From a candidate division WOR-3 bacterium (GTDB lineage: Bacteria; Hydrothermota; Tepidihabitantia; Tepidihabitantales; DTDR01), in assembly GCA_039801725.1 (NCBI GenBank), contig JBDRVE010000013.1, positions 1 through 40,561 on the forward strand: DNA of 40,561 nt. The letters are read 5' to 3'. Position 1 is the stretch's first letter. Each line of letters opens with the position of its first letter. The position numbers and the translations under genes were made by a program. The notes below the pieces were generated by a model. It worked only from the letters and a program-made list of their open reading frames with translations, searched no databases and was not told the DNA's origin. This document shows positions 17,895 to 35,927 of this stretch, piece by piece.

Positions 17895-19286
17895 ATGAGT
17901 GTGATTAAAGATATTTGCGACGAAGAAAAAATTTTTGAAATTTTAGAAAAGACCAAAAACCCTGATAAGAAAACTATTGAATTAATCTTTGATAGGGCAA
18001 AAGAGAAGAAAGGGCTCTCCTTAGAAGAGGTTGGTTATTTAACCAATTTGAAAGATAAAGAACTTATTGATGAACTTTTTAAGATTGCCGGAAAGATAAA
18101 AGAAGAGATTTATGGTGAAAGATTGGTTTTCTTTGCTCCTTTATATATTTCTGATTTCTGTGTTAATGATTGTGAGTATTGTAATTTCCATATTAGAAAT
18201 CCAATGAAAAGAAGAAAGTTAAGTTTAGATGAGATAAAAGAAGAGACAGAAAGAATAATTGAGATGGGTCATAAAAGAATATTATTGGAATGTGGTGAGG
18301 ACCCAGTGAATAATCCAATAGATTATATCGTTTCCGCAATTGAAACAATTTATTCGGTAAAAACTGAAAAGGGAAATATCAGAAGAATAAATGTAAATAT
18401 TTCAGCCACAACCAAAGAGAATTATAAGAAATTAAAGCAGGCAAAAATTGGTACTTATCAATTATTTCAAGAAACCTATCATTATGAAACTTATAAGAAA
18501 TTACATAAAGGACCAAAAGGTGATTATGAGAGGCAGATTACCGCTCATATTAGAGCCTTTGAGGCAGGAATTGATGATTTAGGAATTGGAGTCCTTTTTG
18601 GACTTTATGACTGGCGGTTTGAAGTTTTATCTTTGGTTTCCCATGCCCAATTTATGGATAAATATTTAGGTGTTGGTCCCCATACAATTTCTGTTCCCCG
18701 ATTTAGAAAGGCACCCACCGTAACTTATCAGCCAGAGTATCCGGTTTCTGATGAAGACTTTTTAAAGATTATTGCGATTTTAAGAGTTGCCGTACCTTAT
18801 ACGGGAATGATTTTGTCAACCAGGGAAAGACCCGAAATAAGAAGAGTTGCTTTTAAATTGGGTATTTCCCAAACTTCGGCAGGCTCAAAAACCTCTCCTG
18901 GTGGTTATAGAAATTTTTCTAAGGAAGAAGCCCAGTTTGAAATATATGATTTAAGAACCTTGGAAGAAGTCATTAATGATATTTTAAAAGATAAATTAAT
19001 TCCCAGTTTCTGTACTGCTTGTTATCGGGTTGGTAGAACCGGTGAAGATTTTATGAATCTTGCCAAACCTGGTGAAATTAATAAATTTTGCCGACCTAAT
19101 GGAATTTTAACTTTCGTAGAATATTTAGAAGATTTTGCTAAAATTAACGGTAAAAAAGAGATTTATAAAAAGGGATACGAAGTCGTGGAATATTATCTCA
19201 ATCAGATTGATAACGAAAATATCAAAAAAGAGACAATAAAAAGAATAGAAAGAATAAAAAAGGGAGAAAGAGATTTGTATTTCTAA
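17895..19286 (+). CDS. hydG: [FeFe]-hydrogenase maturase HydG
   Basis: A 463-residue radical SAM enzyme that cleaves tyrosine to give the CO and CN ligands of the H-cluster and delivers an Fe(CO)2CN-cysteine synthon. The SAM cluster motif is CVNDCEYC (Cys 89, 93 and 96). The C-terminal extension that tells HydG from ThiH is present: FCTACYRVGRTGEDFM, then FCRPN (Cys 373, 376 and 399), which holds the auxiliary cluster with the dangler iron. Length is normal. hydE follows after 3 bases. HydF and the hydrogenase itself are not in the window. Confidence 0.95.
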   Translation: MSVIKDICDEEKIFEILEKTKNPDKKTIELIFDRAKEKKGLSLEEVGYLTNLKDKELIDELFKIAGKIKEEIYGERLVFFAPLYISDFCVNDCEYCNFHIRNPMKRRKLSLDEIKEETERIIEMGHKRILLECGEDPVNNPIDYIVSAIETIYSVKTEKGNIRRINVNISATTKENYKKLKQAKIGTYQLFQETYHYETYKKLHKGPKGDYERQITAHIRAFEAGIDDLGIGVLFGLYDWRFEVLSLVSHAQFMDKYLGVGPHTISVPRFRKAPTVTYQPEYPVSDEDFLKIIAILRVAVPYTGMILSTRERPEIRRVAFKLGISQTSAGSKTSPGGYRNFSKEEAQFEIYDLRTLEEVINDILKDKLIPSFCTACYRVGRTGEDFMNLAKPGEINKFCRPNGILTFVEYLEDFAKINGKKEIYKKGYEVVEYYLNQIDNENIKKETIKRIERIKKGERDLYF

Positions 19287-19289
19287 AAT

Positions 19290-20468
19290 ATGTGTTATGC
19301 GATTCCGGGAAAAGTTATTGAGATAGAAGATAATATTTGTAAGATTGAATATTTTGGTATTATTAAAAAAGTAAGAAATGATTTTTATGATTTAAAGATT
19401 GGCGATTATGTTTATGCCCAAGGTGGTTTTGTGATCCAAAAAATTCCTGAAGAGGAAGCAAGAGAGACATTGAAGATTTGGGAAGAATTTTTTTATAAAT
19501 TAAAAGAAGTTGATTTAAGGGTTACCTATCCTTCAAAAGATTTATACAAGATTGCAAATAGAATTCGTCAAGAATATCACGATAATTCTTGTTGTATTCA
19601 CGGAATAATTGAATTTTCAAATTATTGTCGCAATAACTGTCTTTATTGTGGTTTAAGAAAAGATAATAAAAAGTTAAAAAGATACCGAATGGAACCTGAC
19701 GAGATAATAAATTTAGCCTTTTATGCTATTAACAAACTTAATTTTAAGGCATTGGTTTTTCAATCGGGTGAAGATTTATATTATGATATAGATAAATTAT
19801 CTTATATTGTAAAAAGAATAATGGAAGGAAGCCCTTGTCTTTTAATATTAAGTATTGGCGAGAGGGAAATTGAGATTTATAAAAGACTTTACGAACTTGG
19901 TGCCCGTGCTATTCTTTTGAGGTTTGAAACAAGTAATAAGAAGGTTTATGAAAAAATGAGACCCGGTCATAAATTAGAAGATCGGGTTAATTTAATAAGA
20001 GAGTTAAAAGAGATTGGTTATTTAATAATGACTGGTTTTTTGATTGGTTTGCCCGGAGAGGAAGAAGGTGATATTTTAAATAACCTTGCTTTAACTAATG
20101 AACTTGGTGCTGAGATGTTTTCTTTTGGTCCTTTTATTCCCCATCCCGATACACCTTTAAAAGACTTTTTGCCACCACCAATGGAAAAGGTTTTAGATAC
20201 AATTGCTCAAGCAAGGATTCTTTATCCAAATAGTAAAATTTTAGTTACTACTGCTATGCAGACATTAGATAAAAAAGATGGATTAAAAAAAGGTTTATTA
20301 GCCGGTGCCAACTCTTTGATGATTAATTTAACACCGAAGGAATATGCTTATTTATATGAAATTTATCCTAATCGGGATGGTGTTGGTGAAGATATTAATC
20401 AAAAAATAAAAGAGATAATTGCTCTTCTTCACGAACTTGGTCGGGCACCAGCCGATATCGGTTTGTAA
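19290..20468 (+). CDS. hydE: HypC-HydE fusion: hydrogenase maturase with HypC-type N-terminal domain
   Basis: A 392-residue fusion. Residues 1-68 read as a complete HypC/HupF domain: MCYAIPGKVIEI, then GDYVYAQGGFVIQKI, then EEEARETLKIWEEF. In [NiFe]-hydrogenase assembly HypC binds Fe(CN)2CO through Cys2 and a His; here Cys2 is kept and the His position (VLVHVGFA in E. coli) is Gln44. Residues from about 75 onward are HydE, the radical SAM enzyme that converts the HydG product for H-cluster assembly, with cluster motif CRNNCLYC (Cys 113, 117 and 120), FQSGEDLYY, GHKLEDRVNLI and FIPHPDTPL. Placement 3 bases after hydG agrees with the HydE call. Confidence 0.92.
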   Translation: MCYAIPGKVIEIEDNICKIEYFGIIKKVRNDFYDLKIGDYVYAQGGFVIQKIPEEEARETLKIWEEFFYKLKEVDLRVTYPSKDLYKIANRIRQEYHDNSCCIHGIIEFSNYCRNNCLYCGLRKDNKKLKRYRMEPDEIINLAFYAINKLNFKALVFQSGEDLYYDIDKLSYIVKRIMEGSPCLLILSIGEREIEIYKRLYELGARAILLRFETSNKKVYEKMRPGHKLEDRVNLIRELKEIGYLIMTGFLIGLPGEEEGDILNNLALTNELGAEMFSFGPFIPHPDTPLKDFLPPPMEKVLDTIAQARILYPNSKILVTTAMQTLDKKDGLKKGLLAGANSLMINLTPKEYAYLYEIYPNRDGVGEDINQKIKEIIALLHELGRAPADIGL

Positions 20469-32220: not shown

Positions 32221-33339
32221 ATGAAGAAATATCTCCTTTTAACGGTTGGTCCTGTTTATGTTCCTCAGAATTTATTAAAAAAAGCAAGCGAAGATTTAAT
32301 TTATCACCGAGAAGAGAAATTTCATAATTTACTTTCTTCAATAATTTCCCAATTACAAAAAATATTATTCACCAAAGAAAAGATATTCATTTTTACTGCT
32401 TCCGGAACAGGAGCAATGGAGGCTGCCGTTAGTAATCTCACACCAAAAATGGGGAAAGCCTTGGTGGTTTCTTGTGGTCGGTTTGGTGAGAGGTGGCGTG
32501 AGATTCTTCGTTCCTTTGGTTATTATGTTGAAATGTTACGAAGCGAACCGGGAAAACCGGTGCCCCCTGAAGAGGTCGAAAGAAAAGTAAAATTGGATGA
32601 TACGATAAAATATATCTTCACTACTTTAACGGATACCTCTACCGGTGTAAAGCAAGATATAAAAAATTTTGGTCGTATTGCTCGGGAGAATAATCGGATT
32701 TTGATTGTGGATGGGATTTGTGGTATTGGTGCCGATGAGTTTTATTTTGATGAATTTTATTGCGATATTCTTTGTGGTGCCAGTCAAAAGGCTTTAGGCG
32801 GAATTCCAGGAATTTCTTTTCTTTCTGTTAACGAAAGAGCCTGGGAGATTATTAAAAAGTCAAATACCTCCCGTTATTACTTTGATTTGATAAGTTATGA
32901 AAAATTTTTAAATAAAAAAGAAACCCCTTTCACACCTGCTATTAATACCCTTTATGTTTTTGATAGTTGTTTAAGGAAGATAAATAAATTGGGAATAAAA
33001 AAATATTGGCAAAGGCACGAGTTTAATGCTAATCTCGTGAGGAAGATTTTATTAAAAAATAATTTGGAACTTTTCTCTCAATCACCCAGCAATGCTTTAA
33101 CTATCATCAAAATGAAAGAAGGTATAGATAGTACCCAAATAATTAGAGAAATCAAAGAGAAAAAAGGGATTCTTTTTTCTAATGGTCAAGGAGAATGGAA
33201 AGGTAAAATTATCCGTTTTTCCCATATGGGATTTATTGATAGCAAAATTTTGAGAAAAGCCGCCCAAGTGCTTATTAGAGAAATAAAGAAATATGAAAAG
33301 AAAATTTTCAAGGTTGAAGGCACTATTAAAAAGTTATAG
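32221..33339 (+). CDS. Class V aminotransferase (serine/alanine-glyoxylate type)
   Basis: A 372-residue PLP enzyme of fold type I. Landmarks are LLTVGPVYVP at the N terminus, the phosphate-binding TASGTGAMEAAVSNL, VDGICGIGADEF (Asp stacking on the cofactor), and the Schiff-base lysine in GASQKALGGIPG. The subgroup includes serine-pyruvate, alanine-glyoxylate and phosphoserine-like aminotransferases; the substrate cannot be fixed. I start at 32221 because AGGAG lies just upstream; 32215 would add two residues. It overlaps thiC and larE is embedded at its end (47-base overlap). Confidence 0.88.
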   Translation: MKKYLLLTVGPVYVPQNLLKKASEDLIYHREEKFHNLLSSIISQLQKILFTKEKIFIFTASGTGAMEAAVSNLTPKMGKALVVSCGRFGERWREILRSFGYYVEMLRSEPGKPVPPEEVERKVKLDDTIKYIFTTLTDTSTGVKQDIKNFGRIARENNRILIVDGICGIGADEFYFDEFYCDILCGASQKALGGIPGISFLSVNERAWEIIKKSNTSRYYFDLISYEKFLNKKETPFTPAINTLYVFDSCLRKINKLGIKKYWQRHEFNANLVRKILLKNNLELFSQSPSNALTIIKMKEGIDSTQIIREIKEKKGILFSNGQGEWKGKIIRFSHMGFIDSKILRKAAQVLIREIKKYEKKIFKVEGTIKKL

Positions 33340-34099
33340 AAAAGCAATTGTTGCTTTTTCTGGAGGTGTAGATTCTTCGCTTTTATTATTTTTAGCAATA
33401 AAGATATTAAAAAAAAATAATGTTTTTCCGGTAATTTTTGTTTCGCCGACATATCCTTTAATCCATCTAAAAAGAGCAATCATTTTTTTAAATAATTTAG
33501 GTGTTGAGGGAATTTTTGTTTTTACTGAAGAGTTAGAAGAAAAAAGATTTGTCCAAAATTCACCCGAAAGATGCTATTATTGTAAAAAGGAGGCTTATAA
33601 AAAACTTCTCTTATTAAAAAAATTTTTTGAAGTTAGTAAAATCATTGAGGGGACTAACTATTCCGATTTAAAAGATTTTCGTCCTGGTCTTAAAGCCTTA
33701 AAGGAGTTAAATATTGAAAGTCCCTTTTGGAAATTAAAGATAAAAAAAGAGGAGATAAGAAAAATGGCAAAGAGGTTAAAGATTCCTAATTATGATACTC
33801 CCAGTTCGCCTTGTCTTGCATCACGCATTACCTATTATCAAATAATTAATGAAGAGAAACTATCACAAATAGAGAGGGGAGAGGATGTTTTAAGGAAGAT
33901 AGGATTAAAAGATTTTCGTTTAAGAATGATTGATGATAAGGCAAAGATTGAATTAAAAGATGAAAAAGATTATTTTAAAATAATCAGAAATCGTAAAAAG
34001 ATTGTTGATGATTTAAAAAGAATCGGTTTCAGAGAAATTTTTTTAGATTTGAGCGGTTATCGACCAATGGGACTCCAATGGATTATGAGAAACTTTTAA
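33293..34099 (+). CDS. larE: ATP-dependent sulfur transferase LarE
   Basis: A 268-residue PP-loop enzyme that adds sulfur to the nicotinate-derived precursor of the nickel-pincer nucleotide. The PP-loop is AFSGGVDSSLLL (21-32). Cys174 in SSPCLASRI is at the place of the sacrificial sulfur-donor Cys of the Lactobacillus enzyme. A further pair, CYYC (94 and 97), suggests the variant in which three Cys hold an Fe-S cluster so the enzyme can turn over; that is inference. It overlaps the aminotransferase by 47 bases and larB by 22. Confidence 0.92.
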   Translation: MKRKFSRLKALLKSYRKAIVAFSGGVDSSLLLFLAIKILKKNNVFPVIFVSPTYPLIHLKRAIIFLNNLGVEGIFVFTEELEEKRFVQNSPERCYYCKKEAYKKLLLLKKFFEVSKIIEGTNYSDLKDFRPGLKALKELNIESPFWKLKIKKEEIRKMAKRLKIPNYDTPSSPCLASRITYYQIINEEKLSQIERGEDVLRKIGLKDFRLRMIDDKAKIELKDEKDYFKIIRNRKKIVDDLKRIGFREIFLDLSGYRPMGLQWIMRNF

Positions 34100-34815
34100 A
34101 AGAAGTTAGGGATAAAAAAATTTCGGTTAAAAAAGCCCTTGAAATATTAAAAAATTTGCCTTTTATTGATAGAAAAACTTTTAAGATTGACACCCATCGG
34201 AATTTAAGAAAGGGTGTTGGTGAAATAGTTTTTGGCGAGAATAAACCAATAGAAGAATTGAAAAAGATTATTCAAGAATATCAAAGAATTAAAGAAGATT
34301 GCATAATTACCCGTTTAGAAAAAGGGAAGGCAGAGGTTTTAAAGAAAGAATTTAAAGAAGGTATTTATTATGAAAACGCAAGGATATTTGCCTTATTATC
34401 TAAAAAAAGAAAGAAAAAAAAGGGTGAAATTTTGATTATTACCGCTGGCACTTCTGATATTCCCGTTGCCGAAGAGGCAAAGGTAACTTGTGAAATTTTA
34501 GGAAATAAAGTCGTGACAATTTATGATGTTGGTGTGGCGGGTATCCATCGTCTCCTTAATTACTATAACCGTTTAAGGAAAGCAAGAGTAATAATTGTTG
34601 TTGCTGGTATGGAAGGTGCTTTGGCAAGCATTGTTGGTGGGCTTACCGATAAACCGGTGATTGCGGTCCCCACTTCGGTTGGTTATGGTGCCAATTTTTT
34701 TGGTTTAGCACCTTTATTAACAATGTTAAATACCTGTGCGCCAGGGGTATGTGTAGTAAATATCAATAATGGTTTTGGTGCCGGTTATTTAGCCCATTTA
34801 ATTAATAATTTATGA
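34078..34815 (+). CDS. larB: Nickel-pincer cofactor biosynthesis protein LarB
   Basis: A 245-residue carboxylase/hydrolase that converts nicotinate adenine dinucleotide to the dicarboxylated mononucleotide, first step of the pathway. The C-terminal half is PurE-like: ITAGTSDIPVAEEAKVTCEILG, DVGVAGIHRLL, VVAGMEGALASIVGGL and PVIAVPTSVGYGA. The N-terminal half has FKIDTHRNLRKGVGEIVFGE, typical of LarB. Length is normal. It overlaps larE by 22 bases and larC by 4, so the three are made together. Confidence 0.95.
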   Translation: MDYEKLLKEVRDKKISVKKALEILKNLPFIDRKTFKIDTHRNLRKGVGEIVFGENKPIEELKKIIQEYQRIKEDCIITRLEKGKAEVLKKEFKEGIYYENARIFALLSKKRKKKKGEILIITAGTSDIPVAEEAKVTCEILGNKVVTIYDVGVAGIHRLLNYYNRLRKARVIIVVAGMEGALASIVGGLTDKPVIAVPTSVGYGANFFGLAPLLTMLNTCAPGVCVVNINNGFGAGYLAHLINNL

Positions 34816-35927
34816 AAATTCTCTATTTTGATATTCTTACCGGAATAAGTGGCGATATGGTTCTTTCTTCTCTTCTAAATCTTTTAAAAGAAGAAGAAAT
34901 AAATTATTTCAAGAAAGAATTTAGCCTTTTAGGATTACCAATAAAATTTGAAATTAAAAAAATAAAAAAAAGAGAGGTTTCTGCTTATCAAATAAGATTA
35001 CTTAAACAAAATAAAGAGAGATTTCAACCAAGAGATTTTATAAAGGTAATTGAAAATTCAAAATTGAAAGAAGAAGTAAAAGAACTCTCTTTAAAAATTC
35101 TGGATTCCTTAATTAAAGCCGAGAGCAAAATCCATGGTGAAGAAAAAAGATATGCCCATTTTCACGAACTTGGGGATTATGATACTTTATTGGATATCTG
35201 TGGCACAAGTATATTAATCAATATATTAAAACCAAAAAAGATTTATGCCGGTTCCGTAGTATTAGGAAAGAAAAAGGCATTTGCTACCTTAGAGATTTTA
35301 AAAGGAATACCGGTTTACGAACTTAATTATGATTACGAACTGACCACACCCACAGGTGCCGCAATTATCAAAAATCTGTGCGATGATTTTATTCCTTTAC
35401 CTTTGATGAAAATTTATAAAATTGGTTATGGTGCTGGTTATTTTGATTTAGAGATACCTAATATTTTAAGGGTTATTTATGGTGAGTTAATAGAAAAACA
35501 AGATAGGATTATCTTATTAGAGACAAATTTAGACCATTTACCACCCTTTATCTTTGAAAACTTATTTGATTTATTATTTAAAAATGGTGCCTTAGATGTT
35601 TTTATTACACCAATCTTTATGAAAAAGATGCGACCTGCTTATAAACTTTCTTGTTTAATAGAAGAGAAAGACAAAGATAAGATTATGAAAATAATCTTTT
35701 CCGAAACCGAAACCTTAGGAATTAGATATTATCCAGTTTTTCGGGATATCTTAAAAAGGGAGATTAAAGAGATAAAAACAAAATATGGAAAGATAAGAAT
35801 AAAGGAAGCAGAAATTGAAGGTAAAATAATTAAAAATTGGGAATACGAAGATATAAAAAGGATTGCCCAGAAAAGAAAGATACCATTAATTCAAATCTAT
35901 AAAGAACTTTCATCCTATCTTAAATAA
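34812..35927 (+). CDS. larC: Nickel insertase LarC
   Basis: A 371-residue CTP-dependent nickel insertase finishing the nickel-pincer nucleotide. The start LYFDILTGISGDMVLSSLL, the metal-binding YAHFHELGDYDTLLDI, and TTPTGAAIIKNL mark the LarC1 part; the C-terminal LarC2 part begins at about 235 (ETNLDHLPPFIFENLFDLL). Both parts are in a single frame, without the programmed frameshift seen in Lactobacillus. The MATE gene starts at the base where this stop ends. LarA, the usual client enzyme, is absent from the window. Confidence 0.95.
   Translation: MKILYFDILTGISGDMVLSSLLNLLKEEEINYFKKEFSLLGLPIKFEIKKIKKREVSAYQIRLLKQNKERFQPRDFIKVIENSKLKEEVKELSLKILDSLIKAESKIHGEEKRYAHFHELGDYDTLLDICGTSILINILKPKKIYAGSVVLGKKKAFATLEILKGIPVYELNYDYELTTPTGAAIIKNLCDDFIPLPLMKIYKIGYGAGYFDLEIPNILRVIYGELIEKQDRIILLETNLDHLPPFIFENLFDLLFKNGALDVFITPIFMKKMRPAYKLSCLIEEKDKDKIMKIIFSETETLGIRYYPVFRDILKREIKEIKTKYGKIRIKEAEIEGKIIKNWEYEDIKRIAQKRKIPLIQIYKELSSYLK

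Follow-up and report, generated by a model that had tools for sequence, protein, structure and literature searches.

A protein in which a HypC domain is joined to a HydE-like radical-SAM domain very probably forms, together with HydG, an alternative maturation route for [NiFe]-hydrogenases that replaces HypD, HypE and HypF. At the pathway level this route would be a new wiring of protein families that are themselves known. The fusion gene was found in a 40,561-nucleotide stretch of DNA from a candidate division WOR-3 bacterium (contig JBDRVE010000013.1 of assembly GCA_039801725.1), referred to below as the window.

The hypC-hydE gene occupies positions 19290..20468 of the forward strand and encodes 392 amino acids. 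It starts 3 bases after the stop codon of hydG (17895..19286, forward strand). Residues 1-64 (19290..19481, forward strand) match the HupF_HypC family PF01455 with an E-value of 7.7e-18 and 64.9 bits, for a cut-off of 28.5, and the HypC model TIGR00074 gives 55.3 bits for a cut-off of 48. Taken alone, this part also matches the Thermococcus HypC structures 2z1c and 3vyr. The HydE-like domain spans residues 80-384 (19527..20441, forward strand), where the NCBIfam HydE model TIGR03956 scores 249.5 bits, slightly below its equivalog cut-off of 254.6. Three other fusions of the phylum (G099, G100 and G065) are also below this cut-off and one (G102) is above it. The PylB and BioB models were far behind the HydE model, with 146 and 91 bits respectively. 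Pfam places Radical_SAM at residues 107-264 and BATS at residues 282-365, both above cut-off. Thus the profile matches and the reading frame positions agree with the original prediction, made from the letters and reading frames of the window, that a HypC domain is fused to the N terminus of HydE 3 bases past hydG; its assignment of residues 1-68 to HypC is borne out over residues 1-64. It had also read Cys2 as kept and the partner histidine as Gln44, and both residues are as claimed: Cys2, the cysteine that carries Fe in HypC, has its codon at 19293..19295 of the forward strand, and Gln44, which aligns with a histidine invariant in standalone HypC, has its codon at 19419..19421 of the same strand.

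The fusion was modelled with AlphaFold2 from an alignment of 38 fusions, all of which matched both Pfam domains, and the model reached a pLDDT of 93.5 and a pTM of 0.92. A Foldseek search with this model returned Thermotoga maritima HydE (3cix) as the top solved match (E-value 7e-33, 42% identity), and the CX3CX2C motif of the SAM cluster, formed by Cys113, Cys117 and Cys120, is invariant. The neighbouring HydG, a radical-SAM tyrosine lyase that would supply the ligands CO and CN, scores 536 bits with TIGR03955 (cut-off 312), has the HydG structure 4wcx as its best PDB match (E-value 6e-153), and carries both a CX3CX2C motif from residue 89 and a C-terminal CX2CX22C motif from residue 373. A genome-wide profile search revealed neither a second HypC nor a second HydE elsewhere in the genome of the window. 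An assembly joint between the two parts was rejected, as the same architecture is present in two congeneric genomes, at 91% identity, and in at least about 50 other species.

A profile search of 147 genomes of the phylum found the fusion in five: three belong to one genus, one (G102) to another family of the same order, and one (G065) to another family of the class. All five, the genome of the window included, have HydG and [NiFe] large subunits, the latter encoded on other contigs in the case of the window. These enzymes are group-3c-like (L088, L034) and group-3b-like (L089, L035), and their large subunits carry the L1 and L2 ligand-cysteine motifs, keeping RICGxC and DPCxxC. HypB is present in G099. 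HypD, HydF and the [FeFe]-hydrogenase HydA were each found in none of the five genomes, nor was a true HypF or a true HypE. The HypF candidates were rejected because only the acylphosphatase end of HypF was matched, in open frames of 92-101 amino acids where listed, and G102 had none. The HypE candidates, at about 100-117 bits for a cut-off of 252 (none in G065), were set aside as a sub-cutoff paralogue which also occurs in many genomes that have a true HypE. For HypE, HypF and HydA, these absences cover the five WOR-3 genomes. By contrast, HypD was detected in 102 of the 147 genomes of the phylum and [NiFe] subunits in 119, and among the 20 genomes with an unfused HydE, HydF was matched in 18 and an [FeFe]-hydrogenase in nearly all.

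The original prediction had called for a search of protein databases for PF01455 followed by the HydE radical-SAM domain. A wider scan, with one genome per species, yielded at least about 50 further fusions in many bacterial phyla and in archaea. Among the matches listed were Omnitrophota, Planctomycetota, Elusimicrobia, Margulisbacteria, Saganbacteria, Nitrospirae, Gammaproteobacteria, Atribacteria, Methylomirabilis and CPR lineages, as well as the DPANN archaea Nanoarchaeota and Micrarchaeota. HypD and HydF were then scored in 50 further genomes, 49 with the fusion and one with an unfused relative (L143). HypD was above cut-off in none of the 50; a candidate in G148 was a fragment of 33 positions with 18.9 bits, below cut-off, and was discarded. 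Nearly all of these genomes are metagenome-assembled, and any single absence could be a gap, but 55 joint absences are not one.

The prediction made from the window had the HypC domain dock the product of HydG for HydE, toward the H-cluster of [FeFe]-hydrogenase. HydE and HydG are indeed the known H-cluster maturases, and HydG genes are interchangeable between NiFe and FeFe settings. However, with neither HydF nor [FeFe]-hydrogenase in any of the five WOR-3 genomes, a role in H-cluster maturation is strongly disfavoured and was rejected on gene content: the genome of the window has [NiFe]-hydrogenases, without HypD, HypF or a true HypE, and the operons that hold the fusion elsewhere are [NiFe] operons. 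In the further set, HydF was above cut-off in just 7 of 50 genomes, and at five of these seven HydF loci a second, unfused HydE adjoins HydF; it seems that two HydE proteins are kept where both hydrogenase types are matured. We regard this destination as scarcely credible. What stands of the earlier reading is a built-in Fe-CO/CN carrier that links two assembly lines, which fits the evidence; its direction, toward an H-cluster, does not.

Across many phyla of bacteria and archaea, the fusion is commonly part of group 3b [NiFe] operons, with a common order of beta, gamma, small and large subunit, HycI-type protease, HypA, HypC-HydE and HydG. A large subunit was found in 28 of 51 loci, many of them on short contigs, and a large subunit, protease or HypA in 35 of the 51, again with many short contigs. 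The HypA encoded in these operons is usually only 80-94 amino acids long, the MHE start being kept and the CxxC zinc domain gone (loci L109, L112, L114, L116, L127, L129, L130, L132, L133, L138 and L035); judging by its sequence, this short form is a putative minimal nickel chaperone. In several Omnitrophota, a gene for the Rex redox regulator lies between the fusion and hydG (L132:11338-11970 and L108:11311-11949). No homologue of HypD, HypE or HypF was seen within these fusion loci. This bears on the idea that HydG and the fusion supply CO only, cyanide still coming from carbamoyl phosphate through divergent HypD, HypE and HypF that escaped detection. In its favour, where the CO comes from in anaerobic [NiFe] maturation is an unanswered question (PMC12134894), and the large subunits appear ordinary. 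Yet HypD is missing from all 55 genomes and true HypE and HypF from all five WOR-3 genomes, while the same profiles match most relatives, and the operons lack any homologue of the three; a CO-only contribution is thus very unlikely.

Phylogeny separates the HydE domains according to their use. In the HydE tree, 54 NiFe-linked sequences are split from 27 unfused, FeFe-type HydE by a branch with 100/100 support, and the companion HydE proteins encoded in the same genomes as fusions fall on the FeFe side. The three fusion-bearing WOR-3 lineages occupy three separate places within the NiFe-linked clade, which suggests repeated lateral transfer. In the HydG tree, NiFe and FeFe uses are intermixed, with at least five forced changes of association. 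The HydE part, therefore, tracks the destination, and HydG was ruled out as the specificity factor.

The two kinds of HydE also differ in single residues, given here in the numbering of T. maritima HydE (TmHydE); two of these, T134 and R155, probably act at the substrate site of that enzyme, and the open-access literature yielded no paper on these HydE residues. T134 was found in one of the 54 members of the NiFe-linked clade versus 27 of 27 FeFe-type HydE, and R155 in none of 54 versus 27 of 27. T134 is replaced mostly by Phe or Ile, R155 by Gly or Ala, D154 by Arg and R54 by His, and the cluster cysteines, R159, E161, R180, M224, M291, Y303 and Y306 are kept. On the HypC side, Cys2 is present in 52 of 52 fused domains, a count partly preselected as one scan pattern contained Cys2, and in all five WOR-3 fusions, whose detection by profile involved no such preselection. 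The conserved HypC histidine (E. coli H51) is found in none of the 52 fusions, 46 of which have Gln, versus 51 of 51 canonical HypC.

An altered HydE active site, in a family whose relatives PylB, BioB and HmdB perform other chemistry, could also mean that HydG and HypC-HydE build an Fe-CO/CN cofactor for some other enzyme, the [NiFe] subunits being inactive or matured otherwise. But the operon linkage with [NiFe] subunits, protease and HypA holds across phyla, the known role of a HypC domain is on the large subunit, and the metal-ligand cysteines of the large subunits are intact, so that we give this possibility very little credence.

If HydG and HypC-HydE do serve [NiFe]-hydrogenases, as we favour, two known hand-overs would be coupled in the fusion. 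Starting from tyrosine, HydG makes [Fe(Cys)(CN)(CO)2], which passes directly to HydE; there it is reduced and dimerised for use by HydF (PMC12752695). HybG, a member of the HypC family, holds Fe(CN)2CO on Cys2 and brings it to the large subunit (PMC8692609). In the proposed route, which accounts for these parts most economically, the unit would pass from HydG to the HydE domain, then to Cys2 of HypC, then to the apo large subunit. HydG would cleave tyrosine and assemble a mononuclear Fe-CO/CN unit, which would then move to the HydE-like domain to be processed or freed there; it need not be dimerised, HydF and an H-cluster both being absent. The HypC domain, as carrier and large-subunit chaperone, would hold the Fe unit on Cys2 and dock on the apo large subunit, leading to insertion. 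HypA and HypB would add nickel next, and the HycI-type protease would trim the C terminus. The fusion itself, the pattern of co-occurring and missing genes, the linkage in operons, the distinct HydE clade and the changed residues are observed; the chemistry, including the flow of substrate, the carrier role of Cys2 in these proteins and the ligand set delivered, is what we infer from them.

The ligands do not match at first sight: two CO and one CN are present in the product known for HydG, versus one CO and two CN in the known [NiFe] site. One must therefore assume that ligands are exchanged, that HydG has another endpoint here, or that the site itself differs. Since two tyrosine turnovers give two CO and two CN, either ligand outcome is possible in principle. 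Either ligands would be exchanged while the unit is on the altered HydE domain, or the [NiFe] site would carry Fe(CO)2(CN). In the latter case a HydG-type unit would be inserted with its ligands as they are, and the site, in place of the usual Fe(CN)2(CO), would hold a unit wholly derived from tyrosine via radical-SAM enzymes. We consider this form of the route doubtful, though conceivable; if true, it would add a new [NiFe] cofactor to a new route.

By the features tested, the fusion system belongs to neither the Hyp nor the Hyd pathway, and is partly like each. With the Hyp pathway (HypABCDEF, HypX) it shares the target enzyme, a HypC-type Cys2 carrier, HypA and a HycI-type protease in the operons, and HypB in G099. 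It differs in being without HypD, HypE and HypF, in that the Fe-CO/CN chemistry is here assigned to radical-SAM enzymes and tyrosine rather than to carbamoyl phosphate, in having HypC fused and devoid of the histidine, and in a HypA that is often short and lacks the Zn domain. With the Hyd pathway (HydE, HydF, HydG) it shares HydG and an adjacent radical-SAM partner of HydE fold, but the fusion genomes are mostly without HydF and, for the five WOR-3 genomes, without HydA, and the HydE of the fusion belongs to a separate clade, has T134 and R155 replaced, and is directed to a [NiFe] enzyme. The HypCD scaffold complex likewise has the Fe(CN)2CO unit hosted by Cys2 of HypC and an Fe-S partner, except that in the fusion the partner is a radical-SAM barrel of the same chain and not HypD. 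The [Fe]-hydrogenase (Hmd) pathway, with HcgA-G and HmdB, also uses a HydE/PylB-like radical-SAM enzyme for an Fe-CO cofactor; however, this cofactor has no CN ligands and depends on a different gene set, and the HmdB model TIGR03957 scores just 79 bits on the fusion for a cut-off of 321.

In the open-access literature, most subscription journals being outside it, we found no description of a HypC-HydE fusion or of HydG-dependent [NiFe] maturation. A 2025 review states that six Hyp proteins are necessary, ranks the origin of CO under anaerobic conditions as the most urgent open question, and leaves HydG unmentioned (PMC12134894). A 2019 paper on Saganbacteria and Margulisbacteria reported group 3b hydrogenases, and the words HydE, HydG and maturation never occur in its text. 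Here, a [NiFe] enzyme is paired with HydG, which makes CO and CN from tyrosine, in a widespread arrangement that seems to dispense with HypD, HypE and HypF. This would mean that parts are shared between the assembly lines of [NiFe]- and [FeFe]-hydrogenases. It would also change predictions made from metagenome-assembled genomes, as HydE and HydG would no longer imply an [FeFe]-hydrogenase, nor missing Hyp proteins an inactive [NiFe] enzyme, and it would provide a compact set of maturation proteins for use in heterologous hosts.

Some loci depart from the common arrangement. A Parcubacteria genome (G192) encodes HydG together with a HydE that belongs to the NiFe-linked clade but is not fused (L143:9935-12380). 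A group 3b [NiFe] operon lies at a distance of about 6 kb, and neither HypD nor HydF was found in this genome. It may perhaps use the same route without fusion; the presence of an unfused HydE of this clade in at least one CPR genome indicates that the fusion is not essential. In a Woesearchaeota locus (L152:10001-10207), a standalone HypC has Gln where the His would be; it is encoded near a group 3b [NiFe] operon and may represent the system in unfused form. The HydE domain is identical, and the hydrogenase neighbours nearly so, in a Falkowbacteria (L118) and a WOR-1 (L119) metagenome-assembled genome, and the Falkowbacteria contig is probably misbinned. Finally, in the window itself, three adjacent reading frames at 33293-35927, judged by eye, resemble the nickel-pincer cofactor genes larE (33293-34099), larB (34078-34815) and larC (34812-35927), the last in one unbroken frame.
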